64,000 nt of DNA from contig NZ_NISI01000001.1 of NCBI RefSeq assembly GCF_002205845.1, forward strand, positions 930,001 through 994,000, written 5' to 3'. The notes under the pieces are model-generated. The model was not told the origin of the DNA. It did no database searches and saw nothing but the letters and a program-made list of their open reading frames with translations. The DNA is from Roseateles puraquae. GTDB lineage: Bacteria > Pseudomonadota > Gammaproteobacteria > Burkholderiales > Burkholderiaceae_C. A program made the translations under genes and the position numbers. This document shows positions 7,987-24,110 of the stretch, in pieces. Every line of letters begins with the position of its first letter. Position 1 is the first letter of the stretch.

Positions 7987-8046
7987 CTAGCGAACCCGAG
8001 GTTCCTCCAGGGCTAGTAGCAGGGCAATGAGCGCGGCGCGGTTCAT
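7987..8046 (-). CDS. Leucine-rich leader peptide of the leuA2-leuA1 operon
   Basis: A 19-codon frame reads MNRAALIALLLALEEPRVR. Five of the 19 residues are leucine, including three in a row at positions 9-11, two of which use CTA, a codon that is rare in such a GC-rich genome. Ile and Val, the other branched-chain residues, are also present. It is followed by an intrinsic terminator before leuA2, so it is almost certainly an attenuation leader. There is no Shine-Dalgarno sequence. A promoter-like pair (TTGCAC, 16 nt, TAGATT) would start the RNA just 2-3 nt before the ATG, so the leader may be translated as a leaderless mRNA. Confidence 0.85.
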   Translation of the reverse strand: MNRAALIALLLALEEPRVR

Positions 8047-8054
8047 GGGTCGGG

Positions 8055-8082
8055 AATCTAGCACGAAAGCCTATTGGTGCAA
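8055..8082 (-). promoter_or_regulatory. Candidate sigma-70 promoter for the leu leader
   Basis: On the minus strand TTGCAC (8082-8077) and TAGATT (8060-8055) are separated by 16 nt. The first hexamer overlaps the last codons and stop of pssA. Transcription would begin around 8048-8049, almost at the leader-peptide ATG at 8046. The hexamers match the consensus at 4 of 6 positions each, so this is a reasonable but unproven promoter. Read-through from pssA is also possible. Confidence 0.5.
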
Positions 8083-8895: not shown

Positions 8896-8951
8896 GGGCG
8901 TCAGGATAGCCGACGCCGCCGGCAGCCGGGCCGCCGCCCGGGCCGCAAGCG

Positions 8952-8983
8952 TTGAACCTTCCCGCCCTGGCGGGGCACCCACG
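8952..8983 (+). promoter_or_regulatory. ECF-type promoter-like motif, site 3 (before the B12 radical SAM gene)
   Basis: TTGAACCTT at 8952-8960 is followed after 16 nt by ACCCACG at 8977-8983. The same two blocks at identical spacing occur upstream of the ECF sigma gene (24081-24050, minus) and the cytochrome lipoprotein gene (20851-20820, minus). The site is 28 nt upstream of the chosen GTG start and would put the transcription start near 8990. The GAACC core resembles the -35 element of many ECF promoters. Confidence 0.65.
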
Positions 8984-9010
8984 GGCATGACTTCATGCCA
9001 AGGAGATGGC

Positions 9011-10408
9011 GTGCTCTCCATCCTGGTCGGCCACAGTTTCTTCCTGCGCTTCGACGCCAAGCAGTTCGAACGCGCCAAACCCTACCCGCCACTCGCGACC
9101 CTGCAGGTCGCGGCCCTGCTGCGCCGCCTGGGCCATCACGTCGAGTTCTTCGACGCCATGCTGGCCCATGGCACGCAGGATTTCGATGCCCGCCTGGACG
9201 CCAGCCGGCCCGATGTGGTGCTGCTGTACGAGGACAACTACAACTACCTCAGCAAGATGTGCCTGGCCAAGATGCGCGAGGCGGCCTGCACCATGATCGG
9301 GCGGGCCCGGGCAGCGGGTGCCCGGGTGCTGGTGGCCGGCTCCGACGCCAGCGACGCGCCGGACGTCTACCTCGCCGCCGGTGCCGATGTCGCGCTGCGC
9401 GGCGAAGGCCTGGACGCCCTGCCTGCCCTGCTGCGCCGCCTGCAGGAAGAGCCGGCCTTGAGCGGCGCCGCGCTGATGGCCGGGCTGGCGCAGCCGGTCG
9501 CCCTGCCCCGCCCCGAGGCTGCCGAGCTGGAAGCGCCGGTCGCCTGGGACCTGGTCGACATCGAGCGCTACCGCGCCACCTGGCAGGCGGCACACGGCCG
9601 CTTCAGCCTCAACATGGCCGCTTCCAAGGGGTGCTCGTTCCGCTGCAACTGGTGCGCCAAGCCGATCTGGGGCCAGCGCTACCAGCAACGCAGCCCGCAG
9701 GCGGTGGCGGCGGAGATGGCCGAACTCAAGGCCCGCTTCGCGCCCGACCACATCTGGTTCGCCGACGACATCTTCGGCTTCCGGGCCGACTGGGTGCAGC
9801 GCTTCGCCGATGAACTCGACCGGCTGGGCGGCGGCATCCCGTTCTCCATCCAGACCCGTGCCGACCTCATCAGCGACGCCATGGCGCAGGCGCTGGCTGA
9901 CGCCGGCTGCCACGAGGCCTGGATCGGCGCGGAGAGCGGCAGCCAGCAGGTGCTGGACGCCATGAACAAGGGCACCACGGTGCCCGAGATCCACGGCGCC
10001 CGACGGCGATTGCGCGCCGCCGGGGTGCGCGTGGGCTTCTTCATCCAGCTCGGCTACCTCGGCGAAGGCCTGACCGAACTGCTGCAGACCCGCGAGCTCA
10101 TCGAGCAGGCCCAGCCGGACGACATCGGCGTCAGCGTGTCCTACCCGCTGCCCGGCACGCGCTTTCACGAGCAGGTCAAGGCCCAGCTCGGTGCCAAGAC
10201 GCATTGGACCGACAGCGCCGACCTGGCCATGATGTTCCGGGGCACCTTCAGCACCGACACCTACCGCACGGTGCGCGACCTGCTGCATGCGCAGGTGGAC
10301 ATGCACCGCCTGGCTGGCGACGCGCACCGCCGCGCGCTGCAGTCGCTGCAGCAGCGCTGGGCCGCGCTGATCGACAGCCTCACGCCGGCCGCGGCCGTCA
10401 GCCCATGA
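9011..10408 (+). CDS. B12-binding-domain radical SAM protein
   Basis: A 465-residue protein with an N-terminal Rossmann-like cobalamin-binding region (about 1-170, including VLLYEDNYNY and VLVAGSDASDAPDVYLAAGADVALRGEG), then a radical SAM core with the [4Fe-4S] motif CSFRCNWC near residue 212. This class (BchE/P-methylase type) does methylations or ring rearrangements on unreactive carbons. The substrate is unknown. The usual DxHxxG base-off motif is not visible, so cobalamin may bind base-on or not at all. The GTG at 9011 is chosen because AGGAGA ends 4 nt before it; an ATG at 8987 lacks a good ribosome site. Its promoter motif matches those of the ECF sigma gene and the glycan operon, linking it to that regulon. 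Confidence 0.85.
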   Translation: MLSILVGHSFFLRFDAKQFERAKPYPPLATLQVAALLRRLGHHVEFFDAMLAHGTQDFDARLDASRPDVVLLYEDNYNYLSKMCLAKMREAACTMIGRARAAGARVLVAGSDASDAPDVYLAAGADVALRGEGLDALPALLRRLQEEPALSGAALMAGLAQPVALPRPEAAELEAPVAWDLVDIERYRATWQAAHGRFSLNMAASKGCSFRCNWCAKPIWGQRYQQRSPQAVAAEMAELKARFAPDHIWFADDIFGFRADWVQRFADELDRLGGGIPFSIQTRADLISDAMAQALADAGCHEAWIGAESGSQQVLDAMNKGTTVPEIHGARRRLRAAGVRVGFFIQLGYLGEGLTELLQTRELIEQAQPDDIGVSVSYPLPGTRFHEQVKAQLGAKTHWTDSADLAMMFRGTFSTDTYRTVRDLLHAQVDMHRLAGDAHRRALQSLQQRWAALIDSLTPAAAVSP

Positions 10409-11411
10409 GCAGCCGGCGCAGCGCCGCAGCACCCGCTTGAGGATGGGAGCCGCGATGCAGCACCCACCCCGGCAGATCGCCACAGGCGTGCACGAAGCGG
10501 GCCCAACCCGGCTGACCCATGGCGTAGGCCTGGTCTTCATGCAGGCGCGCCAGCAGGGTGTCACGCGGCAGGGGTTCGAGCAGGGCGCCGTCGGCCCGCA
10601 GCTCGGCCGACGTGAACACGAGATGCGCCAGCCGCACCGGCCGCGAGGCCAGCCGTGCCCAGCCCCCGCGCAGGTCCAGCTCGTACTTCTGCACGCCACT
10701 GCGGCGCCGAATGACCGGCGAGGCCAGCACACGGGCACGCAGGGCCGGGTCCCCGATCCAGCCCAGCGCATCAAAGCGCAGGTGCAGGAAATTGGCCACG
10801 CCCGACAGCGCCAGGCCGGTGGGGTCAACGAAGCTGCCGTCCTCGGTGACGACCTCCAGCCCCTGCAACGCGGCGTGCAGGGCCAGGGTCGACTTGCCGG
10901 CGCCGCTCACCCCCATCAACAGCGCGCCCGAGCCGCCCGCGCTGACCGCCCCCGCGTGCAGTGCCACCAACCCCTGGCTGCGCGCGGCCAGCTGAAAGAC
11001 GGCGAACTCGATCAGCTCGTAGCGGGCGTGATAGCCATGCGCCAGCAGGGCCGGCGACAGCTGCACCAGCGCGCGCCGCAGCGCCGGCATCACCAGCACA
11101 TGGTTGTGCGCATCCACCGCGGCGCCCACCACGCCGGCACCGCCCAGCATCTGCGGTCGCGGCGGCTCCCCGTCAAAAGCCGCATCCCCCGCGGCCATGC
11201 GCAACTCGACCTGCAGCTGGACCTGCGGCGAGCCCTCGGCGGGCAGGTCGCGGTAGGCAGCCTCGGCAAGGGCCATCAGCGCGGCGCTGTCGCTGAGGAA
11301 CTCCACGCGCGCGCCGAGCACGTCGACGCTGCGGCGCAGGGCCAGTGGCGCCCGCTCGCCGAAGGGGTCGGCCACGCGGCGGGGATCTTGGGGCCAGGTC
11401 ATGGATTTCAT
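10398..11411 (-). CDS. HprK-related kinase A family protein
   Basis: A 337-residue protein with a P-loop GVSGAGKST (residues 167-175) preceded by VALHAGAV, the layout of the HPr kinase/phosphorylase catalytic domain. The N-terminal 150 residues lack the usual HprK regulatory domain. I recall this as the HprK-related kinase A family, found beside PqqD-like proteins and NTP_transf_5 nucleotidyltransferases; here the nucleotidyltransferase is divergent, 14 nt away, and no PqqD-like gene is visible. The phosphorylated target is unknown. Start is 11411 or the ATG at 11402. The 3' end overlaps the convergent B12 radical SAM gene by 11 nt. Confidence 0.8.
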   Translation of the reverse strand: MKSMTWPQDPRRVADPFGERAPLALRRSVDVLGARVEFLSDSAALMALAEAAYRDLPAEGSPQVQLQVELRMAAGDAAFDGEPPRPQMLGGAGVVGAAVDAHNHVLVMPALRRALVQLSPALLAHGYHARYELIEFAVFQLAARSQGLVALHAGAVSAGGSGALLMGVSGAGKSTLALHAALQGLEVVTEDGSFVDPTGLALSGVANFLHLRFDALGWIGDPALRARVLASPVIRRRSGVQKYELDLRGGWARLASRPVRLAHLVFTSAELRADGALLEPLPRDTLLARLHEDQAYAMGQPGWARFVHACGDLPGWVLHRGSHPQAGAAALRRLLMG

Positions 11412-11425
11412 GGAGTATTGACGTG

Positions 11426-12679
11426 ATGCACAAGAGGGATGAGTTGCCGGCATGGCCCGTCGTGAGGCGAGCGCTGGCCCGGACGACGCACCGGCTGGCG
11501 CAGGAAGTGGCGGCGCCGGCCGCACAGGCGCCCGCATGGAACGAGTTCGAGTGGCGGATCGCCATGGCTGTCTCTGTGATGCACGGCGTCAGCGGGCTGC
11601 TCGCTGGCCGCCTGCGCTGGCAGGGGCCAGCCGCCTGGCAGGCCTTTCTGGAAGAGCAGCTCGAACAGAGCCGCCGCCGTGAAGCCCGGGCCCGCGGGCT
11701 GCTTCGCGCGCTCGACACCGAAGCCAGGCTTGCCGGCGTGCCGCTGCTCGGCCTCAAGGGCTCGGCCTTGCTGGCCCTGGGGCTCTATGCGCCCGGCGAG
11801 CGCCCGATGAGCGACGTGGACCTGCTCGTCCATCCCGAGCACCAGGACCGCGCCGACGCCGTCATCCGGTCGACCGGCTACCTGCCCGGCATCGACAGCT
11901 CGCGCCACCGCGCCTACGAGCCACCCGGCCTCGGGCTGGCGCGCGCCTTTGGCGAGCACGAAAGCAACCCCACCAAGATCGAGCTGCATGTCGAAATCCA
12001 GGAACGGCTCCCGGTGCGCCAGGTGGACATCACGGGCGAGCTCATGCCGCTGAGGTCTGCCGCCGGTCTGCAGGGTTATGCCAGCGCAGGCGCGTTGATG
12101 CGGCACCTGCTGCTGCACACGGCGGGCAATGTGTGCAATCGCTGCGTACGCCTGATCCAACTGCATGACATCGCGGTGCTCGGCGCCGAGCTGGATGACG
12201 CGGACTGGCAGGTCGCCCTCGCGCCAACCACCGACGGCCGGCCGGCCTGGTGGGCCGCTCCGCCGCTCACCCTGGCAGTGCGCCTGTTCCCGAGGCAGCT
12301 CGACGCTCAGAAGATTCAGCGCCCGCTTCAGACCGCACAGGCCGCTTGCCCCGCCGCGCTGCGTCGCAGCCTCCCGAATCGCAGCCTGAGCGCCGACTCG
12401 CTGTCGCACCTGGACACGCCGATGCTGCCCGGCATCGAGTGGTCGCAGTCCGCCCCCGAGGCGCTCGCGTTCGCGTGGCGCCGCCTGCGCCCGCCGCGCG
12501 ACCAGCGGATGACCCAGCGAGCCGTCGTGCAACGAGAGGCGCCCTTGGTTGCCTCCGCCTGGATGCACCTGCCCCGCTGGCGCAAGGCGCTGAGCTTTGT
12601 GCTGGGTGCGCCGCCCCGCGCACAGACCGTCTACCACCTGCACCACGCCCTCGCCTACCAGCCCAGCAGCTCGGCATAG
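11426..12679 (+). CDS. Nucleotidyltransferase family protein (NTP_transf_5-like)
   Basis: A 417-residue protein with the nucleotidyltransferase fold signature: KGSALLALGLY (Gly-Ser at 112-113) followed by the metal-binding pair in MSDVDLLV (Asp130 and Asp132), and a further HVEI segment that could supply the third acidic residue. I recognise it as the uncharacterised NTP_transf_5 type often found beside HprK-related kinases in polysaccharide loci. It is divergent from the kinase gene and ends overlapping the convergent glycosyltransferase by 25 nt. The C-terminal 150 residues are variable and rich in Arg and Ala. Substrate unknown. Confidence 0.78.
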   Translation: MHKRDELPAWPVVRRALARTTHRLAQEVAAPAAQAPAWNEFEWRIAMAVSVMHGVSGLLAGRLRWQGPAAWQAFLEEQLEQSRRREARARGLLRALDTEARLAGVPLLGLKGSALLALGLYAPGERPMSDVDLLVHPEHQDRADAVIRSTGYLPGIDSSRHRAYEPPGLGLARAFGEHESNPTKIELHVEIQERLPVRQVDITGELMPLRSAAGLQGYASAGALMRHLLLHTAGNVCNRCVRLIQLHDIAVLGAELDDADWQVALAPTTDGRPAWWAAPPLTLAVRLFPRQLDAQKIQRPLQTAQAACPAALRRSLPNRSLSADSLSHLDTPMLPGIEWSQSAPEALAFAWRRLRPPRDQRMTQRAVVQREAPLVASAWMHLPRWRKALSFVLGAPPRAQTVYHLHHALAYQPSSSA

Positions 12680-13755
12680 AGCTGCTCGAACGCCTGATGA
12701 CAATGATCCGCATCCTCCATCACCGCGCGGCGCTGGGCCTCTTGCGCCAGCGTGAGCCGCAGTGCCTCGTCGGCCTGCAGCCGCTGCAGCAATGCCGCCA
12801 GCCCTGGCACGTCCCCGGGCGCCACGGTCAGCGCGGCCTGCGGGCTCCATTCAGCCAGATGCCCCACGGCCGTACCGATGCTGGGCACGCCCTGCACTGC
12901 GGCCTCCAGCACGGCCAGCGGGCCGGCCTCATGCCGCGACGTGATGACGTGCAGATGAGCACGCGCCAGGAAAGGCTGCAAGGCGGCCTGCGTCTTGAAC
13001 CCGTGAAAACGCACCCGCGCACCGAGCCCGAGCGCCTCGGCCAGCGCCTGCATCTGCCCGCCGAGGGTGTCCTCGCCGACGAGGTCAAGCTCGGCGCCGG
13101 GTACTCGCGCCACGGCGCGCAACAGGCAGCCGGGGTCCTTCACGCGGTTCAGGCTGGCCACCTGCAGCAGCCGCAGCGGCTCGCCGGCCTGCCGGCGACG
13201 TGGTGGCTGCGGAGGCCAGATGTTCAGGTCAACGCCCAGCGGCAGGCGGCGGCCCTCGCGGCCGAGGGCAGCCAGTTGGTCGAGGATGGGGCGGCTTGCG
13301 GCGGTCAGCGCGTCAGCAGCCCGAAGCACGCAGGCCTCATGCAGGCGCCCCCGCCAACTCAAGCGGCCGCCGTAGCCGATGTCGGGCAGCGCCTGCAGTT
13401 CACCGCCGGCGACATGGACCGCGCTCGGAAGCTTCAGCCAACGCGCGGCCGCCACAGCCGTGGCCCCCGCCGCCCCCGACCACACCGACTGCACCAGCGC
13501 GAAACGACCACGCCGGTGCTCGCGTGCGATGGCGGCCACTGCCCGCCACTGCGCCACCGCCATCCGCACCCCGGCCACGTTGTGCACACGGGCACCGCAC
13601 AGCCACCACTGGTCGTCCTGCGGCTCCTGGCGCAGGGCGAACACATGCACCTCATGCCGGCTCGCCAGGCGCTTGAGCAAGGCCAGCAGCGCCGGCACCA
13701 CCCTCACCTCGCCGGAGCGGTCCACACCACCCGGCACCACCACCGCCAACTTCAC
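12655..13755 (-). CDS. Glycosyltransferase family 4
   Basis: A 366-residue GT-B glycosyltransferase. The N-terminal domain begins KLAVVVPGGVDRSGEVRVVPALLALLKRLA, an acceptor-domain start with a Gly-rich loop. The C-terminal domain has LLQVASLNRVKDP and HVITSRHEAGPLAVLEAAVQGVPSIGTAVG, containing the E-x7-E motif of retaining GT4 enzymes. The GTG at 13755 is chosen because GGAGG lies 7 nt upstream. It probably adds a sugar to the product of this locus. It faces the methyltransferase gene divergently with only 14 nt between. Confidence 0.85.
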   Translation of the reverse strand: MKLAVVVPGGVDRSGEVRVVPALLALLKRLASRHEVHVFALRQEPQDDQWWLCGARVHNVAGVRMAVAQWRAVAAIAREHRRGRFALVQSVWSGAAGATAVAAARWLKLPSAVHVAGGELQALPDIGYGGRLSWRGRLHEACVLRAADALTAASRPILDQLAALGREGRRLPLGVDLNIWPPQPPRRRQAGEPLRLLQVASLNRVKDPGCLLRAVARVPGAELDLVGEDTLGGQMQALAEALGLGARVRFHGFKTQAALQPFLARAHLHVITSRHEAGPLAVLEAAVQGVPSIGTAVGHLAEWSPQAALTVAPGDVPGLAALLQRLQADEALRLTLAQEAQRRAVMEDADHCHQAFEQLYAELLGW

Positions 13756-13769
13756 GACGCCACCTCCGC

Positions 13770-14609
13770 ATGAACACGACCCATACCACCACCCCGACGC
13801 TGCTGGACGAACGCCTGGCAGACACCCAGCAGGCCTTCGACAGCGTGGCCGCCGACTACGACGGACCCCGTGGCAACAACATCGCCATCCAGGACATGCG
13901 CGCCGAGATGTGGCGCTGGCTCGAGGCCAGCTTCGCACCGGGGAGCCGGCTCATCGACCTGGGCTGCGGCACCGGCCTGGACGCCGTGCACCTGGCCGGG
14001 CAGGGTCACCAGGTCACGGCTACCGACTGGTCGCCTGGCATGGTGGCGCGCACCCGCGAGCGGGCCGAGCAAGCCGGGCTGTCGGTCGACACCCATGTGC
14101 TGGGGGCGCATGAACTGCAGCACCTGCCGGGCGAGGGTCGGTTCGACGGTGCCTACTCCAACCTCGGCCCCCTCAACTGCGTGCCCGACCTGACGGCGGT
14201 TGCCGCCGAGTGCGCACGCCTGATCCGGCCGGGTGGCCGGCTGGTATTCACGGTCATTGGCCGCTGGTGCCCCTGGGAGATCGCCCACTACGCCCGGCAG
14301 CGCCGCTGGCAGCGACTGGCCGTGCGCTTTGCGCGCGAAACCGTCGCCGTGGGCATGAACGGCCGCACCATCTGGACCCGCTACTACACGCCGGCCGAGT
14401 TCTACGCCGCGTTCCAGCCGCACTTCGCACTGGAAGTACAGCGCGGACTGTGCGTCTTCGTGCCGCCGCCCTATCTCACGGGCCTGGCTGAGCGTCACCC
14501 GCGCTGGCATCAGCGGCTGTGGGCGCTGGACCGGCGCGTGGCCGGCTGGCCGGGGATCAACAGGCTGGGTGATCATTTCCTGCTCGTCATGCGGCGTCGC
14601 GACAGCTGA
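13770..14609 (+). CDS. Class I SAM-dependent methyltransferase
   Basis: A 279-residue protein with motif I LIDLGCGTGLDAVHLA (near residue 60), an acidic residue ending strand 2 (TATDWS), and the post-I motif FDGAYSNLGPLNCVPDL, typical of small-molecule or glycan methyltransferases. The C-terminal half is longer than in minimal enzymes and aromatic-rich, perhaps for substrate binding. It sits between two glycosyltransferase genes, so it may methylate a sugar or the lipid carrier product. Its end overlaps the flippase gene by 37 nt. Confidence 0.82.
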   Translation: MNTTHTTTPTLLDERLADTQQAFDSVAADYDGPRGNNIAIQDMRAEMWRWLEASFAPGSRLIDLGCGTGLDAVHLAGQGHQVTATDWSPGMVARTRERAEQAGLSVDTHVLGAHELQHLPGEGRFDGAYSNLGPLNCVPDLTAVAAECARLIRPGGRLVFTVIGRWCPWEIAHYARQRRWQRLAVRFARETVAVGMNGRTIWTRYYTPAEFYAAFQPHFALEVQRGLCVFVPPPYLTGLAERHPRWHQRLWALDRRVAGWPGINRLGDHFLLVMRRRDS

Positions 14610-15982
14610 GCCCATTCGTCCAGCAAGGGGTGCCGGCTGGCGCGCAACACGGCCAGCCAGGCCAGCGGCGCCACCGTCACCGGCACCACCACCACCACCG
14701 CCGCCGCCAGCGCACTGCCGCGCACCGCGGCCCACACCGCCGCAGGCGGCTGGCCCAGATGTCGGGCACTGACCACGAGCTGCACCGGGAGCGTGGCCAG
14801 CGCAGCCGCCGCCAGCGCCCAGGCAAACGAGGCCACGCTGCCCTCGAACATCCACGCCACAGCCGCAAGGCGCAGCAGCATGGACACCGCCAATGGCAAC
14901 ACAGCCCGGTGCGCACCGCCCGCCGCGGCCAGCGCGGTGCCCAGCTGAGAGAACATCAAGGACAACGCCGCCACGATCGCCAGCGGCAGCAAGGCCGGCA
15001 CCGCCTCCAGCCACGCCGGGCCATACAGCAGCCGCACCAGCGGCGCCCCGTAGGCCACCGTGAGGGCCAGCAAGGGCCAGCCCACGCCGGTGATGACGGC
15101 CATGGCCCGCCGCAACGCCGGCTCCAGGGGCAGCGCCTGCGCCTGCCGCTGGGCCAGCACCGGCAGGCTGCCAAAGGCCAGCACCCGGCCGGCAAGCAGC
15201 TGCGTCAAGCCGACCACGCCCTGGGCCCGGCCCAGCAGGCCCAGGGCGTGTGCGCCGCCGAGCCGACCCAGCAACAGATCGGGCAGCAAGCCATGCAGCG
15301 TGAACAAGGCTGCCGGGGGCAGCCCACCCACCGCGCGCCGCAGCACCTCGCCCATGCCTCGCCACCGGGGGCGCCACGCAAGCCCCGCCGGCCGCATGCC
15401 CAGATGGGCCAGGCCACAGACCAGCGTGGTGGCCACCTGGGCCCAGGCCAGTCCCATCGCACCGCCGCCCTGGGCGCTGCATGCCAGCGACACCAACGCC
15501 TGCACCCACAGACCCAGCCAGCTCGTGCGCGCCAGCGCACCCGCCGCCAGAGCTCGCAACTGCAGGGCCGCCATGACGCTGCTGAAGGCCGACAGCGGCA
15601 GCACCGGCGCCAGCACCCACAGCAGACGGGCCAGCCCGGGCTGACCCCAGTGCCGCGCCAGCGGCTCGGCCAACACGAGCAGGGCCAGCGTCAGCACCGC
15701 GGTGCTGAGGGTCAGCAGGCCGAGGGCCGCCGAGAAGTGCGCCTGCGTCAGCGCCGACTCGCGCTGCAGCCAGGTCGACACGCCCAGGTCACGCAACAGC
15801 TGGGCCACGCCGAACACCGCCATCGCCAGCGCGAACTGCCCCATCTCGGCCGGCGCGAGCCACCGCGCCAGCACGAGGCTCAGCAGCAAGCGCGCGCCAC
15901 TCTCGCCCACCGACGACACCAGCTGACCCACGACCGCGCGGCGCAGCGCCAACGGCGTGATCTGCAGGGGCAGCACGCTCAT
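14573..15982 (-). CDS. Oligosaccharide flippase family protein (Wzx/MATE-like)
   Basis: A 469-residue integral membrane protein with roughly 12-14 hydrophobic helices. It opens with LRRAVVGQLVSSVGESGARLLLSLVLARWLAPAEMGQFALA, the characteristic N-terminus of polysaccharide flippases, and has the LGRAQGVVGLTQLLAGRV loop. Such proteins move lipid-linked saccharides across the inner membrane. It overlaps the preceding glycosyltransferase by 4 nt (ATGA), so it is the last gene of the minus-strand operon. It implies that this locus exports a lipid-linked glycan. Confidence 0.87.
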   Translation of the reverse strand: MSVLPLQITPLALRRAVVGQLVSSVGESGARLLLSLVLARWLAPAEMGQFALAMAVFGVAQLLRDLGVSTWLQRESALTQAHFSAALGLLTLSTAVLTLALLVLAEPLARHWGQPGLARLLWVLAPVLPLSAFSSVMAALQLRALAAGALARTSWLGLWVQALVSLACSAQGGGAMGLAWAQVATTLVCGLAHLGMRPAGLAWRPRWRGMGEVLRRAVGGLPPAALFTLHGLLPDLLLGRLGGAHALGLLGRAQGVVGLTQLLAGRVLAFGSLPVLAQRQAQALPLEPALRRAMAVITGVGWPLLALTVAYGAPLVRLLYGPAWLEAVPALLPLAIVAALSLMFSQLGTALAAAGGAHRAVLPLAVSMLLRLAAVAWMFEGSVASFAWALAAAALATLPVQLVVSARHLGQPPAAVWAAVRGSALAAAVVVVVPVTVAPLAWLAVLRASRHPLLDEWAQLSRRRMTSRK

Positions 15983-17097
15983 GGCTGCAACGCGTCCTGG
16001 TAGGCAGCCAGCAAGCCCTGGCCCAGCGCGTCCAGCGAGCAATGCGCCTCGAAACGCGCCCGCACCTGCTGCCGTCGGCGCAGCCCGTCACCGCCGGCCA
16101 GTCGCACCAGGGCATCCGCCAGCGCCGCCGGCTGGCCGACGGGCCACAGCGCAGCGGCCTGATGCCCAGGCAGATCGCCCAGCAGGCTGCGGAAGGACGG
16201 AATGTCCGTCACCACCGGGCTGAGCCCGCAGGCCAACGCCTCGATGACGCTGTAGCCCGAACCCTCGCGGTGACTGCCCTGCACGAGGAAGTCGGCTGCC
16301 GGCATCCAGTGGGCCACCTGCGCATGCGGCACGGCGCCGAGCAGGTGCACCCGGCCGGCCAGATCGGGCGCCCGGGCACGCGCGATCACTTCGGCCCGCA
16401 GGGGCGCCCGGCCGAAGCACATCCAGAGCTGCAAGCCGGGCAGCTCACGCGCCGCCAGGGCCACGCCGCCCAGCACCGCCAGCGGGTCCTTGTTGGCATC
16501 CAGGTGCCCGACCCACAACAGTGCCGGATCGCCGGCCAGGCCGGTCAGCTCGCGCGCCACGGCGCCATCGATGGGCCGCAGGTGACTGCTGGCCTCGGGC
16601 ACTTCATAGACCCGCGTGCGCCGCGGCAGCAGCCCCCAGCGCCTGAACGGCAGCGCCTGCGCCCGGGCGCAGAAGATCACCCCGCGCGCCCGCGACAACG
16701 CGCGGCGCCAGCGCCACCACAGCCATGGCCGGCGCGGGTGGCGGGCGGCGTGGTCCTGCAGCAGCAGGGGCACACCAGGTGCGAGCTGCGCGAGCCATTG
16801 CACCTCGCGGGTGAAGCCCAGGCCATGCAGGTGGATGACGTCGGGCCTGAGCTGGGCCAGCAGCGCGGCGAAGCCCGGATCCACGCCGCCGCCGGCGCCC
16901 GCGATCGGCAGGAAGTGATAGTCCACGCCGTGGCGCTGCAGATGATCGCTGCGCAGGCTGCTCTGCAGCACCGACACCCGCGCGCCGGCCTGCGCCACCG
17001 AGCGGGCGCACTGCTCCACCGTCCACCAGGCCGCCAGCAGGTCTTGCGGCGGGCGCCCGAGGGGGTCGGTCACCGGGTCGATCTGGACCACATGCAT
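15979..17097 (-). CDS. Glycosyltransferase family 4
   Basis: A 372-residue GT-B enzyme. The N-domain has MHVVQIDPVTDPLGRPPQDLL and DVIHLHGLGF. The C-domain has LLWVGHLDANKDP and GSHREGSGYSVIEALACGLSPVVTDIPSFR, including the E-x7-E retaining-transferase motif. It overlaps the flippase by ATGA and follows the amidohydrolase by 11 nt, so it is part of the same operon. Donor and acceptor sugars cannot be read from sequence. Confidence 0.87.
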   Translation of the reverse strand: MHVVQIDPVTDPLGRPPQDLLAAWWTVEQCARSVAQAGARVSVLQSSLRSDHLQRHGVDYHFLPIAGAGGGVDPGFAALLAQLRPDVIHLHGLGFTREVQWLAQLAPGVPLLLQDHAARHPRRPWLWWRWRRALSRARGVIFCARAQALPFRRWGLLPRRTRVYEVPEASSHLRPIDGAVARELTGLAGDPALLWVGHLDANKDPLAVLGGVALAARELPGLQLWMCFGRAPLRAEVIARARAPDLAGRVHLLGAVPHAQVAHWMPAADFLVQGSHREGSGYSVIEALACGLSPVVTDIPSFRSLLGDLPGHQAAALWPVGQPAALADALVRLAGGDGLRRRQQVRARFEAHCSLDALGQGLLAAYQDALQP

Positions 17098-17108
17098 CGG
17101 GCGCCCCT

Positions 17109-18254
17109 TCAGGCCATGCAGCGCGAGTCGGCCGCGGCGAGGGTCAGCCCCGGCTCCTCGGCATGGCCGAGCAAGTCCGGGGCAAGGGTCTTGCGGCGCC
17201 CGTCCAGCAGCACCGGCACCAGGCCCAGCGGCTCGCCCAGGTCGGCATCCGCCACCAGCACCCGGCCGCCCACCATCACCAGCCGCAGGTCGGCCCGCGT
17301 GGCCTGCGCCAGCGGCAGCCCGCGCGGCAGGGCCACCAGATCAGCGCAGAGCCCGGGCGCGAGGCGGCCGCGGTCGTGCAAGCCCAGCACTTGCGCCGCC
17401 TCCTCCGTGACCCAGCGCCACAGCCGCTCGTCAGGCCAGCCCGTCAGCGCCTGCACCAGCTGCAGCTCCGCCAGCAGGTCGCGGCCACCGCTGATGCGGG
17501 AGTCACTGCCGAGCACGAGGCGACCTGCCGCAGCCAGCAGCGTCGGGTCCAGCGTGTTGCCGAACAGATGCAAGTTGGAGCCCGGGCACCACGCCACGGC
17601 CGCCCCGGCGCTGATCACCTGCTCTTGCTGCGCGGCGCTCAGGCCCAGGCCGTGGACCAGCAGCGTGCCGGGGCCGATGCAGCCCAGCGCCTGCAGCCGG
17701 TCGCCCTCGGCGGCCGCGGCGGCATCGCAGCCCTCAGCGGCGTGGATGACCCACAGCGCGCCATCGGGCGTTGCGCGGCGCGACGCCTGCACCGCGGCCT
17801 CCCCCTCCAGCGCCAGCGAGTGCGACCAGCCGCCGGGCGCCGGCGCACGGACGGGAAAGCCGGGCGATGCCAGCACCGGCTCGCGTGGGTCGTGGTGCAG
17901 CACCGTCGTCACGCCGCTGAGCAGGTTCTTCAGCCCGCCGGCCCAGAGTCGCTCGGCCCGGGGGCGGGCCCGGTGCGCGAGCAGCTGGGGATCGTGCTGC
18001 AGGCGTGGTGTGATGTCGGCGATCCATTCGCTCGCATTGCGGTAAGCGCTGCGGTAGGCCAGGCGCGGCAGCGCGCCGTTCAAGTGCAGATGGTCGTGGG
18101 CATTGATGAAGCCCGGCAGCAGCCGGGCACCGCCCAGGTCGAGGCGACGACCGCGAGCGCTGCGCGTCAGCCGGCCGTCTTGCACACCCCACGCTTGTGG
18201 GTGCCCCCAGGCATCGGTGGCGTTCGTCAGCTGCAGCGGCTCTGTCAGGTTCAT
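17109..18254 (-). CDS. Amidohydrolase family protein (SsnA/ATZ-TRZ type)
   Basis: A 381-residue metal-dependent hydrolase of the amidohydrolase superfamily. LLPGFINAHDHLHLNG gives the HxH metal ligands, WVIHAAEG the next His, LLVHGLGLS another, and VLGSDSRIS the metal-binding Asp. The end has GRLAPGLCADLVALPRG, the common closing beta-sandwich segment. The superfamily deaminates or hydrolyses ring or amide bonds. A stand-alone member inside a glycan/radical SAM operon is unusual. It overlaps the radical SAM gene by ATGA, so the two probably act in one pathway. Confidence 0.8.
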   Translation of the reverse strand: MNLTEPLQLTNATDAWGHPQAWGVQDGRLTRSARGRRLDLGGARLLPGFINAHDHLHLNGALPRLAYRSAYRNASEWIADITPRLQHDPQLLAHRARPRAERLWAGGLKNLLSGVTTVLHHDPREPVLASPGFPVRAPAPGGWSHSLALEGEAAVQASRRATPDGALWVIHAAEGCDAAAAAEGDRLQALGCIGPGTLLVHGLGLSAAQQEQVISAGAAVAWCPGSNLHLFGNTLDPTLLAAAGRLVLGSDSRISGGRDLLAELQLVQALTGWPDERLWRWVTEEAAQVLGLHDRGRLAPGLCADLVALPRGLPLAQATRADLRLVMVGGRVLVADADLGEPLGLVPVLLDGRRKTLAPDLLGHAEEPGLTLAAADSRCMA

Positions 18255-19219
18255 GCCGGTGCAAACCACTTGGCGCAGACGCAGCGCTCGCAGGCCGCCT
18301 GTGCACCTGCCGCGATCGCAGCCCGCAGGCGGCGCTCCGCTGGCGCGTTCAGGGCGGCTTCGAGGCCGCCTGCCCCCAGGCGCTGCGTGCCGCCGATGAA
18401 GAAGCACGGGCGCAGGCGGCCATCCGCCTCGATGACCGCCGAATGCGCCGGCGCGTTGCAGCGCGGTGCGGTCAGCGGGCCCAGCCCCAGGCGGGCCCGG
18501 GCATGCGCCTCGATGCGCCTCAACTTGGCCGGGCTCTCGGCGATGAAGCCACCGGCCAGATCGTCGGCGTGGGTCTGCTCGATCGCATCAAGGCTGGCCG
18601 CCAGCAGCGGCAGGTCTTCCGGGCGCAGCGCCACGCCATCAGGCGCCGGTGCCTGGCGGCCGAAGGCCTCGTCATGCGCCACGTCGGCCGCCAGAAAGGA
18701 GATGCCATTCACCCCCAGACCATGCGCCAGCCTGACCAGCGCCGGCAGCTCGGCCACATTGCCACGCTGCACGGTCACACGCAGCGTCACCGGCAAGCCC
18801 GCGCGCACGGCGGCCCGCACGCCTGCGCACACCACCTCGAAGGCGTCCAGCCCGCGGATGCGCGCGTAGCTCGCGGCGGTGGCCCCGTCCAGCGACACCG
18901 TGACCTGCTCGACATGCCGGGCCACGTCGTCCAGCTGCTTGGCGAGCGCCAGCCCCGCGGTCAACAGCCAAAGCTTCAGGCCTTGCGCCCGCAGCAGGGT
19001 GGCCATCTCGACCCAGTGCGGATGCAGCAGCGGCTCGCCGCCAGACAGCAGCACCTGTTCGACGCCCAGCGCCTTCAGCCCGGGCAGCAGCTGCTGCACC
19101 GTGGCCAGCGCCATGTCCTGCCGGCCGTGTCGCCAGTAGTCGCAGCTCACGCAGCGCGAGTTGCAGCGCTCGGTGAGGTACAGCGTGACCAGGCGCAGCT
19201 GCACCAGCTCGGGTGCCAT
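18251..19219 (-). CDS. Radical SAM protein with a C-terminal cysteine cluster
   Basis: A 322-residue protein with a radical SAM core: TERCNSRCVSCDYW carries the CxxxCxxC cluster near residue 19 and LLSGGEPLLHP is the GGE SAM-binding motif. The C-terminal 90 residues hold more cysteines (PRCNAPAHSAVIEADGRLRPCFF and CERCVCAKW), arranged like a SPASM or twitch auxiliary-cluster region. Such enzymes modify peptides or small molecules; the substrate is unknown. The start at 19219 is the only ATG placed just before the core and has GGGAG upstream. It overlaps the amidohydrolase by 4 nt. Confidence 0.85.
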   Translation of the reverse strand: MAPELVQLRLVTLYLTERCNSRCVSCDYWRHGRQDMALATVQQLLPGLKALGVEQVLLSGGEPLLHPHWVEMATLLRAQGLKLWLLTAGLALAKQLDDVARHVEQVTVSLDGATAASYARIRGLDAFEVVCAGVRAAVRAGLPVTLRVTVQRGNVAELPALVRLAHGLGVNGISFLAADVAHDEAFGRQAPAPDGVALRPEDLPLLAASLDAIEQTHADDLAGGFIAESPAKLRRIEAHARARLGLGPLTAPRCNAPAHSAVIEADGRLRPCFFIGGTQRLGAGGLEAALNAPAERRLRAAIAAGAQAACERCVCAKWFAPA

Positions 19220-19247
19220 CGGGGCTCCCGGCCGGTCGATCAGGACG

Positions 19248-20330
19248 CTAGAACATGGCATGCAGTTCGGCGAAGGTCTGCCGCCGGTTGTCGACCGCGT
19301 TCTGCGGAATGCCGCCGAACTTGCGCGTGCCAAAGCGCAGCTGCACGAAGCCGATCGGCGTGTACTCGTAGACGAGGCTGTAGCGCACCTTGTTGTCGTG
19401 GGCGACGCGCCGGTCGGGGTCCAGGTATTCGCTGGTGAGCTTGAGGTTGTGCCCCTGCTGCACCAGCCAGTTGGCCTCCAGCAGCGTCGCCACCTGCCGT
19501 CGTTTGCCCTCGGGGTAGCCGGCATCGCTGACGAGGTCGATCTCGGCCAGCCAGGCCACCGGCCCGGTCACGGTGCCGGCGAACAGGCCCCAGGCCTGGC
19601 GGTCACCGGCCGACGACTTCACCTGCGCGGCAGCGGCGCCGATGCGGCCCCAGGGCTGCATCCAGATCGCCTGCGCCGTGGTCTGGTGCCCGGTCACGCT
19701 GCCCTTGTTGCCGGGCCCATTGCTGCGCACGAGCTGGATGGACCATTCGTCGCTCTCATGCCCCAGCTCCAGGCCCTTGTCGGGCACCGTCATGCTGACG
19801 CCGCTGAGCTGGCGCACGAAGGCCAGGCTGTCCTGCAGCCGCCAGCCGAAAGGCAGGTAGAACTGACCGGCCTTGGCATACCAGCCCAGCCCCGGCGTGG
19901 ACAGGCGCACATAGGCCTCCTGCCGCTCCGACTTGCCGGGCGCCAGCTGCTGGTCGAGGTAGGCGCCGAGGTAGTCCTTGATGAGCTGCACGTCGGCGTA
20001 CAGGCGCGTCTGCTCCGTGCCGCCCACGCTGCGGGTGGGCTGGCCGGACACCGACGTGCGCGTGGTCGCCGTGCGCAGGTCGCCGCCCAGGCGCAGGCGG
20101 TCGTCCAGCAGCGAGCCGTTCCAGCCCTGCAGGGCATCCGGCAGCGCATTGCTCGGGATGACGTTCTGCGCGAAGGCGTTGCCCACCGCGTTGCGCAGGC
20201 CGCCGCCGGTCGGGTTCACGTGGCAGGCCACGCACTTGAGCCCCGCGCGAATGGCCAGGTAGGGCTCGGCCTGCACGGCCGGCAGCGTCAGGGTCAGGGC
20301 CAGGCCCAGCAGCCATCGAAGGGCCTTCAT
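19248..20330 (-). CDS. Single-heme cytochrome c motif joined to a predicted outer-membrane beta-barrel
   Basis: A 360-residue protein with a signal peptide (MKALRWLLGLALTLTLPAVQA) followed at once by one heme-binding motif CVACH in a segment ending PTGGGLRNAVGNAFAQ. The remaining 290 residues alternate polar and hydrophobic residues, are rich in Gly, Tyr and Trp, and end in AMF, i.e. a terminal Phe typical of outer-membrane barrels. It resembles porin-like proteins with an N-terminal heme, perhaps for electron transfer at the outer membrane. It overlaps the cytochrome lipoprotein by ATGA and precedes the radical SAM gene by 28 nt. Confidence 0.7.
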   Translation of the reverse strand: MKALRWLLGLALTLTLPAVQAEPYLAIRAGLKCVACHVNPTGGGLRNAVGNAFAQNVIPSNALPDALQGWNGSLLDDRLRLGGDLRTATTRTSVSGQPTRSVGGTEQTRLYADVQLIKDYLGAYLDQQLAPGKSERQEAYVRLSTPGLGWYAKAGQFYLPFGWRLQDSLAFVRQLSGVSMTVPDKGLELGHESDEWSIQLVRSNGPGNKGSVTGHQTTAQAIWMQPWGRIGAAAAQVKSSAGDRQAWGLFAGTVTGPVAWLAEIDLVSDAGYPEGKRRQVATLLEANWLVQQGHNLKLTSEYLDPDRRVAHDNKVRYSLVYEYTPIGFVQLRFGTRKFGGIPQNAVDNRRQTFAELHAMF

Positions 20331-20785
20331 TTCTGGGCTCCGTTGTTGATCCACTGGCGGATGAGGTTGATGCTGGCCGCGTCGAGGTACGGGCCGCCGA
20401 AGGGCATGCGCGCACCGACGGCCTGATGACCCTCCAGCTTGTGGATGAGGTAGCTGTTGTCCGCATCGCCCGGCGCCACGCGCTTGAGGCCCGGCACCTC
20501 GCTGCTTGCAACACCCACCAGCAGCGCGTAGCTGTTGGTCGCATCGAGCCGCAGGCCCTGCGGCGCGGCGGCGCCGGCATGGCAGCCGGTGCACACGGGC
20601 GTGAACACATGCGACTGGATGGAGCTGAACGAGGCCGTCATCGGCCCGCTCGGGTCATTGCCCTCACCCAGCGGGCGGCCATTGCTGTCCAGCCCCTCGC
20701 CGCTGCCGCCGCCACACCCGACGACCACCATCGTCGCCGTCACCACGGCAGCCAGCGCCGCCCATCCTCGTGTTGTCCTTGTCAT
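20327..20785 (-). CDS. Cytochrome c-like lipoprotein
   Basis: A 152-residue protein with a lipobox (VVVGC) after a hydrophobic signal, so it should be lipid-anchored, and one heme c motif CTGCH within SHVFTPVCTGCHAGAAAPQGLRL. The end, RMPFGGPYLDAASINLIRQWINNGA, matches the C-terminal part of small c-type cytochrome domains in which the Met of MPFGG is the distal heme ligand. It is the first gene of the operon that runs through the barrel cytochrome to the flippase, and it is preceded by the shared ECF-like promoter motif at 20820-20851. Confidence 0.8.
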   Translation of the reverse strand: MTRTTRGWAALAAVVTATMVVVGCGGGSGEGLDSNGRPLGEGNDPSGPMTASFSSIQSHVFTPVCTGCHAGAAAPQGLRLDATNSYALLVGVASSEVPGLKRVAPGDADNSYLIHKLEGHQAVGARMPFGGPYLDAASINLIRQWINNGAQK

Positions 20786-20819
20786 TGCCGACCTTTCCCG
20801 TTCGCGGACCTCATTGCGC

Positions 20820-20851
20820 CGTGAGTGCCGGTCGGCGCGGCCAAGGTTCAA
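20820..20851 (-). promoter_or_regulatory. ECF-type promoter-like motif, site 2 (before the cytochrome-glycan operon)
   Basis: On the minus strand TTGAACCTT (20851-20843) is followed after 16 nt by ACTCACG (20826-20820). Block sequence and spacing equal those before the sigma gene and the B12 radical SAM gene. The second block ends 34 nt before the lipoprotein ATG. It lies in the 93-nt gap after the TorF-like gene, marking the start of a new transcription unit. Confidence 0.65.
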
Positions 20852-20878
20852 GCGGTCGAGAAAAGCTTCGGCAGCAGT

Positions 20879-21589
20879 TCAGAAGGCGGCCGTGAGGTTG
20901 AGCACCACGGTGCGGCGGCGCGTGGCGTCGGTCCACACATAGGGCCCGCCTCGGCTGGCGGCCACCCAGGCCAGTTGCAGCTCGCCCATCTCACCGAGCT
21001 GACGAGACAGCCCCAGTCGCACATCAGCCCGCGACGGGCTGCGCCCCTGCGCATAGGCCGGATCGCCCTGGCGCCAGCCGCGCAGCAGGCCAGCATGGCC
21101 CACCGCCGCCAGACCGTCGCCGAGCGGCCAGCGGCCGTTGAGCTCGACGTACACGCTGCGCTGGCCGACGCCGTAGTAGTCGGGCGAGGCGTAGGCGCGC
21201 AGCGACCACTGGCCGCCGATCAGGCCGATGTAGGCCTCCTGGTAGTCGTAGTGCGAGACGTTCTCGTGCAGGTGCGCGACGACGCCCGCTTCGGCATCCA
21301 GCCCCGGCGCCATCGGCAGCACGCGCCCACCGTACAACTGCAACGTGGCGCCCCGCCGCTGCGTGAACCGCGCGTGGCCCAGCTGGGTACCGCCATACCA
21401 GCCGCCGGCGCCGTCCCAGGCCAGGCCCAGCTGGGCGCTGGGCCGGTTGTCGCTGTACGACATGCCGCGTTCGCGCGCATCGGTCTGCAGGCTGAGCGTG
21501 CCGCCGACGTCCGCATGCGACAACGCCACACCGGCCAGCAGTGTGGCGAACAGCAGGCAATGGGAAGCCAGGCGGGCGGGGGGAGCCAT
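20879..21589 (-). CDS. TorF family putative porin
   Basis: A 236-residue outer-membrane protein with a signal peptide ending SHADV. GGTLSLQTDARERGMSYSDNRPSAQLGLAWDGAGGWYGGTQLG resembles the start of the TIGR02001/TorF family, in which an opening strand pair is followed by a RG.S.S..PA.Q motif. The protein alternates residues as in beta-strands and ends in NLTAAF with a terminal Phe. Its ATG overlaps the subtilase stop by 1 nt, so it belongs to the ECF sigma operon. Transport substrate unknown. Confidence 0.72.
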   Translation of the reverse strand: MAPPARLASHCLLFATLLAGVALSHADVGGTLSLQTDARERGMSYSDNRPSAQLGLAWDGAGGWYGGTQLGHARFTQRRGATLQLYGGRVLPMAPGLDAEAGVVAHLHENVSHYDYQEAYIGLIGGQWSLRAYASPDYYGVGQRSVYVELNGRWPLGDGLAAVGHAGLLRGWRQGDPAYAQGRSPSRADVRLGLSRQLGEMGELQLAWVAASRGGPYVWTDATRRRTVVLNLTAAF

Positions 21590-22800
21590 CAGTCGGCCGT
21601 CGGCTCCCGTGAGGCGCAGGCGGGTGCGCGGCCCGCCACATGCCGCGCGAGCGTGGCGCAGCTGTCGATGCGGCCCTGGCTGGCCGTCACAAGGGCCGCC
21701 TGCAGCACCTGCGAGCCGCGGGGCCCGTCGAGCTCACGCACCAGGGCCAGCAACCCCGCCGCATGCGCCGCCGCAAACGACGAGCCGGTGACCAGCGCAT
21801 AGCCGCCGCCCACCGCCGTGCTCGGCACGTCCCGCCCGGGCGCGGTGACGGCGCCCGCCGGCAGCGGGGGGGCGGTGCCCACCACCAGCACGCCCCGGTG
21901 GTTGGCGGGGAAGGGTCCGCCGCTGCTGGGCAGTGCCGCCACCACGGTGGTGCCCCGGGCCAGGGCCTGGTCGAGCAGCACCGACAGCAGCCGGTCGTCC
22001 GGCCCGCCGAGGCTCAGGTTGATGATCTGGGCCCCCTGCTGGATGGCGGCGTGCAAGGCCTTGGCCAGGCCCAGGCTGGTGCACAGGGTCTGGGCCTGCG
22101 GCGCCTGCCAGCAGGCGCGCAAGGCGATCAGCCGCGCCTGCGGGGCCACGCCGGCAATGCCCAGCCCGTTGTCGGCCCGCGCCGCGATGATGCCGGCCAC
22201 CGCCGTGCCGTGCGCCTCGGCGGGCACCGGGCCCTCGTCGACGAAGTTCTCGTTGACCACCACCTGGCCGGCCAGGTCGGGGTGGCGGGCCTCGACGCCG
22301 CTGTCCACCACGGCCACCCGCACGCCGCGGCCGGTGGCCAGCTTGTGCAGCTCGGCCAGATGCCATTGCTGGGCTGCCGGCTGCGCGGCATACAGCGGCT
22401 CCTGCTGCGTGCCCTGGGCCCGGTAGACGGCCACCGGCTGGGCCCAGGCCACGCGGTGGTCGTCCGACACGGCGCGCGCCGCCTCGGCCGAGCTGCGGGT
22501 GTCGCCCTCGGGCAGGCGCATCACGAAGCAGTCCAGCCCCGCCAGCGGCATGGCCCACTGGCTGCGCACCTCCAGCCGGTAGGCCTTGGCCAGCGCCTGG
22601 GCCACCTGCTGGCGCGACTGCCGGCCGACGCCTTCGCCATACGTGCCCGCGTAGCTGCCGTCAGGCCGGTAGTGGGCCTTGGGCAGCTGCAGCATCACCA
22701 GCACCTGGCGCTCCGCCTCCTCGGCCCCGGACACCTGGGCGCGGGCCAGGCCGGCGGCCACCATCAGCAGCGCGGCCAGCAGCTTGAGCAGCACCTTCAT
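21589..22800 (-). CDS. Subtilase (S8) family serine peptidase, secreted
   Basis: A 403-residue protein with a signal peptide (MKVLLKLLAALLMVAAGLARA), a prodomain-like region (about 30-130) and an S8 catalytic domain. The triad is Asp166 (VVDSGVEARHPD), His197 (AHGTAVAG) and Ser341 (GSSFAAAHAAG). The usual oxyanion-hole AAGN motif is not seen; the equivalent stretch reads VVAALPSSGG, so activity may be altered. It overlaps the anti-sigma gene by ATGA and is followed by the TorF-like porin. A role in envelope signalling or processing of exported products under the ECF sigma factor is inferred. Confidence 0.85.
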   Translation of the reverse strand: MKVLLKLLAALLMVAAGLARAQVSGAEEAERQVLVMLQLPKAHYRPDGSYAGTYGEGVGRQSRQQVAQALAKAYRLEVRSQWAMPLAGLDCFVMRLPEGDTRSSAEAARAVSDDHRVAWAQPVAVYRAQGTQQEPLYAAQPAAQQWHLAELHKLATGRGVRVAVVDSGVEARHPDLAGQVVVNENFVDEGPVPAEAHGTAVAGIIAARADNGLGIAGVAPQARLIALRACWQAPQAQTLCTSLGLAKALHAAIQQGAQIINLSLGGPDDRLLSVLLDQALARGTTVVAALPSSGGPFPANHRGVLVVGTAPPLPAGAVTAPGRDVPSTAVGGGYALVTGSSFAAAHAAGLLALVRELDGPRGSQVLQAALVTASQGRIDSCATLARHVAGRAPACASREPTAD

Positions 22801-23411
22801 CGCCCCGGCCCCGGCTGCAAGGGCTCGGCCATCGCGACGATCGGCGCCTGGCGCAAGGCAGCCAGGCCCGGGGCATCCACGCGCAGCAGCCAGGCCCCGG
22901 TCTCCGTGGGGCCGGACACCACGCCGGCCTTCTGGGCCTGCAGCAGCTCGCGCACCGCCTGCTCGCTGGTGCCGGGCTTGAACATCACCAGCGCATCGGC
23001 CGCCACCGGCGCCGTGCCGGCGGCCGACAGGCCCTGGTAGGCCGGCGGGTCCTGCCGCGTGGTCAACAGCACACCCAGCAGCACCGCCACGGCGGCCCCT
23101 TGCAAGCCCAGCGCCCAGGGCACCCAGCGCGGGGCAGGCGCCGCGGCGCGGGGAGGCCGGGGGGACATGAGCGCGTGCATGCGGGCCAGCCCGGCCTCGA
23201 CATCACCCACCGGGGCGGCAGCGCCCGCCACGTTCAGCAGGGTCTGCATCGGCTGCTCGGCGGCCAGCTCCTGGCGGCAGGTGGCGCAGTGCAGCAGGTG
23301 CTGCTGCACCTGGAGGCGCTCGCCCTCGTCCAGCTGGCCGCGGGCATACCAGGGCAGCAGGGCCTGCACGGCGGCATGCTCGTCGTTGTCCATCGGGATC
23401 ACCACACTCAT
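22797..23411 (-). CDS. Anti-sigma factor with zinc-finger-like N-terminus
   Basis: A 204-residue membrane protein. The N-terminal 50 residues hold a ZAS-like motif (VQQHLLHCATCRQELA, H-x3-C-x2-C), which binds ECF sigma factors. A single transmembrane helix follows (WVPWALGLQGAAVAVLLGVLLT), and a periplasmic domain (ADALVMFKPGTSEQAVRELLQ...) resembles the C-terminal domain of many proteobacterial anti-sigma proteins. The ATG at 23411 overlaps the sigma stop by one base (TGATG); an ATG at 23393 is an alternative. It should hold the ECF sigma inactive at the membrane until an envelope signal. Confidence 0.85.
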   Translation of the reverse strand: MSVVIPMDNDEHAAVQALLPWYARGQLDEGERLQVQQHLLHCATCRQELAAEQPMQTLLNVAGAAAPVGDVEAGLARMHALMSPRPPRAAAPAPRWVPWALGLQGAAVAVLLGVLLTTRQDPPAYQGLSAAGTAPVAADALVMFKPGTSEQAVRELLQAQKAGVVSGPTETGAWLLRVDAPGLAALRQAPIVAMAEPLQPGPGR

Positions 23412-24031
23412 CACAGGTCTCCATGATGACCGGCCAGGTCATCGAGCAGCAGGCGGAGGCGCTTGCGTGCGTAGAACATCCGCGTCTTCACGGTCTCGGG
23501 CGGGCAGCCCACGATGTCGGCGATCTCGCCGTAGGCCATGTCGTGGAAGTAGCACAGCTCCACCACGGCGCGGTGCTCAGGCGACAGCTCGGCCATGGCC
23601 GAGCGCAGCCGCTCGCGCACCTGCGCCTGGCCCAGGCGCTGCTCCGGGCCGGGCGCGCTGTCGGCCGGCTCCTCGGCGTCGTCGCCGTCCACCGGCAGGT
23701 CCAGCCGGCTCAGGGCCTTCAGGCCCTTGCGGTAGGCAATGCCGAAGATCCAGGTCGACAGCTTGCTGCGCCCGTCGAAGCTGTCCGGCCGCTGCCAGAG
23801 CACCAGCAGGGTGTCGTTCAGCACCTCCTCCAGCAGGTCGGTCTGGCGCAGCATGTGGGCCAGGAAGCGGGTCAGCCGGGGGTGGTAGATGCGGTAGAGC
23901 GCATCGAAATCCCCGCGCCGCCCCCGACGCACCCCTGCGAGCAGCTCGAGCTCCAACGCGTCGGCGGCCGGCCCGCGGGCGGGGTCGGGCGCGTCGCTGC
24001 GCGGTTTCTTGAGGGTGAGCCACTTCAACAT
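23411..24031 (-). CDS. ECF sigma factor (RNA polymerase sigma-70 family)
   Basis: A 206-residue sigma factor with region 2 (about 40-105: FDALYRIYHPRLTRFLAHML, LLEEVLNDTLLVLWQRPDSFDGRSKLSTWIFGIAYRKGL) and region 4 (about 145-200: LSPEHRAVVELCYFHDMAYGEIADIVGCPPETVKTRMFYARKRL). It lacks regions 1 and 3, as ECF factors do. It is followed directly by its anti-sigma gene and then the subtilase and TorF-like porin. The promoter-like motif at 24050-24081 is upstream, and two similar motifs precede the glycan operon and the B12 radical SAM gene. Autoregulation and control of those units are inferred. Confidence 0.9.
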   Translation of the reverse strand: MLKWLTLKKPRSDAPDPARGPAADALELELLAGVRRGRRGDFDALYRIYHPRLTRFLAHMLRQTDLLEEVLNDTLLVLWQRPDSFDGRSKLSTWIFGIAYRKGLKALSRLDLPVDGDDAEEPADSAPGPEQRLGQAQVRERLRSAMAELSPEHRAVVELCYFHDMAYGEIADIVGCPPETVKTRMFYARKRLRLLLDDLAGHHGDL

Positions 24032-24049
24032 CGGGGGTCCTGGGTTTCG

Positions 24050-24081
24050 CGTGTGTTCCCGGCAGGCGCGAAAAGGTTCAA
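24050..24081 (-). promoter_or_regulatory. ECF-type promoter-like motif, site 1 (before the sigma gene)
   Basis: On the minus strand TTGAACCTT (24081-24073) is followed after 16 nt by ACACACG (24056-24050), 18 nt before the sigma factor ATG. The block-spacer-block structure is the same as at sites 2 and 3. Its position before the sigma gene suggests positive autoregulation, which is usual for ECF factors. Confidence 0.65.
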
Positions 24082-24110
24082 CGACATGCTAAGGGCGCTA
24101 TCGTTGCGCC

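Follow-up and report, generated by a model that had tools for sequence, protein, structure and literature searches.

A predicted extracytoplasmic function sigma factor regulon with converging promoters at the ends of an alternating-strand gene array in Roseateles puraquae

A 64,000-nucleotide stretch of the Roseateles puraquae genome (assembly GCF_002205845.1, contig NZ_NISI01000001.1, positions 930,001 to 994,000; hereafter the window) carries an extracytoplasmic function (ECF) sigma factor gene close to an array of glycan, radical S-adenosylmethionine (SAM) and cytochrome-like genes, and an identical bipartite motif precedes three genes of this locus. The question raised is whether the neighbouring sigma factor uses these sites as promoters and, if so, how they could serve an array in which the coding strand changes repeatedly. 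The sites, designated P1 (sigma operon), P2 (cytochrome-like lipoprotein gene) and P3 (B12-binding radical SAM gene; Table 1), are very likely sigma-dependent promoters of this ECF factor and members of one regulon, which is well enough supported to be treated as real; sigma dependence of transcription is inferred here from the motif, its conservation and its co-occurrence with the sigma gene.

A shared promoter motif

The original prediction, made from the window alone, proposed that three sites with the pattern TTGAACCTT-N16-ACNCACG, sharing both blocks and a 16-nt spacing, were unlikely to have arisen by chance. On re-scanning, the coordinates, spacing and block identity were exact, with zero mismatches at all three sites, and the window was found to hold only these three exact copies of TTGAACCTT, as had been claimed, with one further place (50204-50212) matching at one mismatch. 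The distance between the motif end and the start codon, originally given as 18-34 nt, was measured as 18 nt for the sigma gene (ATG 24031), 27 nt for the B12 radical SAM gene (GTG 9011) and 34 nt for the cytochrome-like lipoprotein gene (ATG 20785). Allowing up to three mismatches recovered the same three sites only, against a shuffle mean of 0.56, and a count of three was reached by 1 of 100 shuffles. The genome-wide scan that had been proposed covered 6,057,990 bases; with two or fewer mismatches to the full pattern allowed, it again returned these three sites and nothing else, with no matches scattered across coding regions. The reversed control also gave three matches at that laxity, so the evidential weight lies in the exactness of the matches and their clustering at a single locus. 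A chance repeat as the origin of the motif was rejected on the basis of these and the wider genome scans with their controls.

Compilation of 48 sites refined the consensus to TTGAACC-N15-GGnA(C/T)(T/A/C)CA, revealing a GG one base 5' of the ACNCACG block that had previously gone unnoticed (G23 in 47/48 sites and G24 in 48/48, the GG being required by the search pattern in 9 of the 48). GAAC-type blocks are an ECF -35 type, and the -10 region GGnACTCA is not known as a usual ECF -10 and may, as originally suggested, reflect a distinct specificity. Allowing the refined pattern one mismatch added four matches in the window genome, against three for the control, and these were treated as chance. 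An A is present at motif position 37, 5 nt 3' of the CACG block and so within the 5-9 nt originally expected, in 34 of the 48 sites, in 12 of them as the first base of an ATG start codon, and this position is likely to be the transcription +1. The ATG falls exactly at position 37 at all nine sites before a second ECF gene found in relatives (L101-L106, L109-L111) and at three sigma orthologs (L041, L042 and L050), which, provided position 37 is the start, suggests leaderless mRNAs for these genes.

Conservation and specificity of the motif

Sigma relatives were found at 22 loci, of which the 19 closest (L033-L051) were scanned and the remaining three (L052-L054, 23-30% identity) were dropped. 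A motif with up to three mismatches was present just 5' of the sigma gene in 19/19 scanned loci, among them those of a Rudaea record and of a gammaproteobacterial metagenome-assembled genome, in agreement with the expectation that orthologous sigma genes would share it. The P2 site, approximately 3.2-3.4 kb downstream, was found in 12 of the 15 scanned loci having the cytochrome-like lipoprotein gene, and the P3 motif precedes the B12 radical SAM gene in all nine genomes for which that gene and its upstream DNA were available. In the Rudaea record (L049:9834-9949) and the metagenome-assembled genome (L051:321-406) a second, divergent motif-like site lies just 5' of the sigma promoter. TTGAACC-like stretches with other downstream blocks before distant sigma homologs (L019, L022-L024 and L029) were not counted, open reading frame calls being crude there.

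Across 20 congeners the refined pattern gave 43 matches, compared with one control match. All 43 occur in the 14 congeners whose sigma ortholog matches at 72-100%. The six others have no match, G011 among them having nothing closer than a 34% relative; motif and sigma gene co-occur without exception, 14 congeners having both and six neither. Based on position and neighbouring gene, the matches were assigned to the sigma gene (15, one of them preceding a copy in G003 that seems degenerate), the cytochrome lipoprotein gene (12), the second ECF gene (9) and the B12 radical SAM gene (5), with the last two before a PEP-CTERM gene (G016) and a methyltransferase gene (G013) that heads an alternative module having other B12 radical SAMs. 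The prediction of a single ECF regulon is largely supported, the motif tracking the sigma gene (14/14 versus 0/6 congeners); the gene set as originally stated was too narrow, as in relatives the same promoter also precedes the second ECF gene and a distant PEP-CTERM gene. By coordinates, a PEP-CTERM gene follows the second ECF gene in eight of nine genomes. Neither was accepted as a target in the window genome, where the nearest second-ECF relative is a 49% match interrupted by an in-frame stop and no PEP-CTERM match was found at E<=1e-15.

Variants of the system were also observed. G003 seemingly has a second, split copy (L107 on contig 20 and L108 on contig 62), with one part having the motif before the seemingly degenerate sigma start together with glycosyltransferase and flippase genes, and the other having it before cytochrome-like genes and a radical SAM gene. 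In L063 (1071-13500) and L064 the glycan module is replaced by the alternative module of other B12 radical SAM and methyltransferase genes, and in L063 the motif is also present at the far end, pointing toward the sigma operon.

Several observations weigh against the regulon as described. The genomes compared are related and hence not independent samples. At up to three mismatches P2 is missing from three of the 15 loci that carry the cytochrome gene, with weaker position weight matrix sites in L045 and L047 and none above threshold in L040, and the GG of the B12 promoter is replaced by AG in L065 and CG in L153 (two of nine genomes). G012 has the sigma gene, yet no motif match precedes its PEP-CTERM ortholog (71%). 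Beyond the genus, the pattern does not exceed chance level in 80 genomes (seven matches versus six for the control); among the seven, only that of G026 lies close to a sigma homolog, 54 nt 5' of the homologous stretch, and those of G075 and G088 are on contigs other than those of their sigma matches.

The tie between motif and sigma factor being drawn from sequence, the motif could in principle be the operator of another DNA-binding regulator with no ECF promoter involved. This is very improbable given the fixed spacing, the A at the expected +1, the location of the sites just before start codons, the GAAC-type -35 and the exceptionless co-occurrence with the sigma gene in the congeners. The presence of the motif before the second ECF gene in nine genomes raises the related idea that this second factor reads the same motif and governs part of the set, which is likewise improbable, if marginally less so: G018 carries the second ECF and PEP-CTERM genes without either the sigma gene or the motif, while the window genome has the motif, yet only the interrupted second-ECF relative.

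The sigma factor operon

The sigma factor matches PF04542, PF08281 and TIGR02937 above their cut-offs, with PRK12515 as its best NCBIfam subfamily (below cut-off) and RpoE as its best PDB match. The anti-sigma gene of the window overlaps the sigma gene; an anti-sigma is present in 38/38 loci, and in 20/20 proteins PF13490 is matched and H38, C42 and C45 of the HxxxCxxC motif are invariant. PDB sequence matches include ChrR (E 3e-5) and, weakly, RslA (0.012) and RsiW (0.1), and there are 265 relatives at E<=1e-8, the named ones being mostly Roseateles or Pelomonas among the matches listed. The C-terminal domain, taken to be periplasmic, is predicted to adopt a subtilisin-prodomain fold: this part of the AlphaFold2 model has a per-residue confidence (pLDDT) of ~95 (whole-protein mean 83, predicted template modelling score 0.38), and its top structure matches are prosubtilisin structures. 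Three results count against this picture, namely that a Foldseek search with the anti-sigma model gave no match at E<=0.001 (best 4e-3), that PF22148 scores 14.1 bits in the window protein, under the gathering cut-off of 21 (25.0 bits in L047), and that hhalign found no profile similarity between the domain and the subtilase, so that sequence homology of the two was rejected.

The co-encoded S8 subtilase retains the catalytic triad D166/H197/S341 in 22/22 aligned proteins, as invariant columns in alignment A2. None of the 22 has the oxyanion-hole Asn at the aligned position, the register being that of the window protein's alignment; in L037, L039 and L049 an Asn lies a few residues further on, and a shifted role is possible.

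The alternating-strand array

P3 (8952, plus strand) and P2 (20851, minus strand) face each other across 11.9 kb with five strand switches. In order from P3, the genes encode the B12 radical SAM protein (plus), an HprK-like protein (minus), a nucleotidyltransferase (plus), a glycosyltransferase (minus) and a methyltransferase (plus), followed by six minus-strand genes. The long minus operon of the original prediction is contiguous over these six genes, from 20785 down to 14573; beyond this point the strands alternate. The tail overlaps of 11, 25 and 37 bp are identical in 6/6 close genomes. Taking the most likely starts, the same six genomes have 11-14 bp between the heads of the glycosyltransferase and methyltransferase genes, while 8-14 bp separate those of the HprK-like and nucleotidyltransferase genes in the three genomes where this was measurable.

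The 38 loci come from 22 relative genomes. Nine of these have at least the sigma-proximal part of the array (L044 being seen in part), whereas in 13 the sigma operon does not have the array beside it; two of the 13 have the alternative module. A B12 radical SAM match at E<=1e-130 was obtained in four of 299 family genomes drawn, namely the window genome, G142, G169 and G263. The latter three bear other genus labels; in all of them the strands alternate, the sigma operon is kept and each side has an end promoter, with head gaps of 2-34 bp apart from one of up to ~65 bp at a putative start. Alternation and end promoters are conserved in 9/9 genomes.

From the alternating strands and heads mostly 2-34 bp apart, we infer transcription of both strands of the array by the converging P2 and P3 of one sigma factor, a reading that we consider to have an even chance of being correct. 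It is also quite possible, if somewhat short of probable, that the sigma promoters are real and the interior genes use their own unrecognised promoters, with no two-strand read-through. Such promoters may sit within coding sequence, and the head gaps of the three more distant genomes (2-34 bp, one up to ~65 bp) speak in their favour; the 8-14 and 11-14 bp gaps and the constancy of the alternation and end promoters argue against them. Also against them, a consensus scan, although weak in DNA of 70% GC, found no sigma-70-like site in 7900-24300, where 0.5 was expected in shuffles. The terminator scan (five found versus 3.5 expected) was uninformative.

Proposed mechanism and comparison with known systems

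Under the proposed mechanism, the membrane anti-sigma would hold the sigma factor through its zinc domain until an envelope signal freed it. That signal would perhaps be read via the anti-sigma prodomain-like domain and the co-encoded S8 partner, with the prodomain sensing, or being processed by, the oxyanion-altered subtilase. Free sigma would then read the refined consensus and start transcription ~5 nt past the CACG block, P1 would boost the sigma, anti-sigma, subtilase and porin in a self-amplifying manner, and P2 and P3 would fire toward each other across an array offering little space for promoters between divergent genes. Very probably, the three sites are where a stress-type, self-amplifying sigma factor turns on, from both ends, a gene cluster for cell-surface sugars and radical enzymes. 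Two-strand read-through and the sensor are hypotheses backed by conserved anatomy, and sensing through the prodomain-like domain and S8 partner is plausible, with slightly less than an even chance. Whether the prodomain-bearing anti-sigma, the altered subtilase, the converging promoters with an interleaved two-strand array and, in relatives, the downstream second ECF together constitute a new mode of ECF control is more doubtful, although possible.

As in the autoregulated ECF/zinc anti-sigma pairs RpoE-ChrR, SigL-RslA and SigW-RsiW, the sigma factor has regions 2 and 4, its gene overlaps that of an anti-sigma with a zinc-binding anti-sigma (ZAS)-like N-terminal domain, and it has a motif ahead of its own gene. 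Unlike those three systems, the anti-sigma here bears a prodomain-fold domain and a subtilase is co-encoded. Unlike subtilisin prodomains and POIA1-type inhibitors, this domain is fused to an anti-sigma domain through a membrane helix, and sequence similarity is marginal. ECF54-type contexts likewise have a subtilase gene beside the ECF sigma gene, with a proposed role in control according to PMC8999054; set against these, the present system has an anti-sigma gene at all 38 loci. Within the limited collection of literature searched, nothing matching a prodomain-bearing or S8-linked ECF anti-sigma was found, and no title among the matches listed for TTGAACC concerned the present system.

In noncontiguous operons and excludons, too, the genes of a functional cluster lie interleaved on opposite strands, from which an overlap of their transcripts follows. 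PMC7154746 describes menE-menC-MW1733-ytkD-MW1731 of S. aureus, in which opposite-strand genes with overlapping transcripts are reciprocally regulated. Unlike that operon, the present array has five strand switches and end promoters apparently both under one sigma factor, which would favour co-induction over reciprocal regulation. If true, reading of the array from both ends by one sigma would be an extreme case of conserved overlapping transcription with co-induced products, and an anti-sigma prodomain-subtilase interaction would represent a new signal-entry route to an ECF factor. The regulon itself is unusually clean and testable: its promoters are few, its motif is explicit, and one genome offers a natural control.

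Features of the locus

Table 1. Promoter sites and genes of the sigma operon and array (window positions)
Feature	Position	Strand	Remarks
Promoter P1, sigma operon (predicted)	24050..24081	-	TTGAACCTT-N16-ACACACG
ECF sigma factor, 206 aa	23411..24031	-	sigma-70 regions 2 and 4 (Pfam, NCBIfam)
Anti-sigma factor	22797..23411	-	zf-HC2; one hydrophobic helix (~97-118); C-terminal domain 138-197
S8 subtilase	21589..22800	-	N-terminal signal-like segment; own prodomain
TorF/Gcw_chp-type putative porin	20879..21589	-	PF09694, TIGR02001 above cut-off
Promoter P2 (predicted)	20820..20851	-	TTGAACCTT-N16-ACTCACG
CxxCH lipoprotein (cytochrome-like)	20327..20785	-	PSCyt1 below cut-off
CxxCH protein	19248..20330	-	signal-like N-terminus; no Pfam/NCBIfam match
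Radical SAM protein	18251..19246	-	
Amidohydrolase	17109..18254	-	
GT4-type glycosyltransferase 1	15979..17097	-	
Polysaccharide flippase	14573..15982	-	
SAM methyltransferase	13770..14609	+	interleaved
GT4-type glycosyltransferase 2	12655..13755	-	14 bp head-to-head with methyltransferase (most likely starts)
NTP_transf_5 nucleotidyltransferase	11426..12679	+	
HprK-like protein	10398..11411	-	match below cut-off; 14 bp head-to-head with nucleotidyltransferase (most likely starts)
B12-binding radical SAM protein	9011..10408	+	
Promoter P3 (predicted)	8952..8983	+	TTGAACCTT-N16-ACCCACG; converging on P2

MlaE/MlaD-type lipid transport genes (window 24111-27835) are divergent from the sigma operon and adjoin it in 11 of the 19 loci L033-L051.
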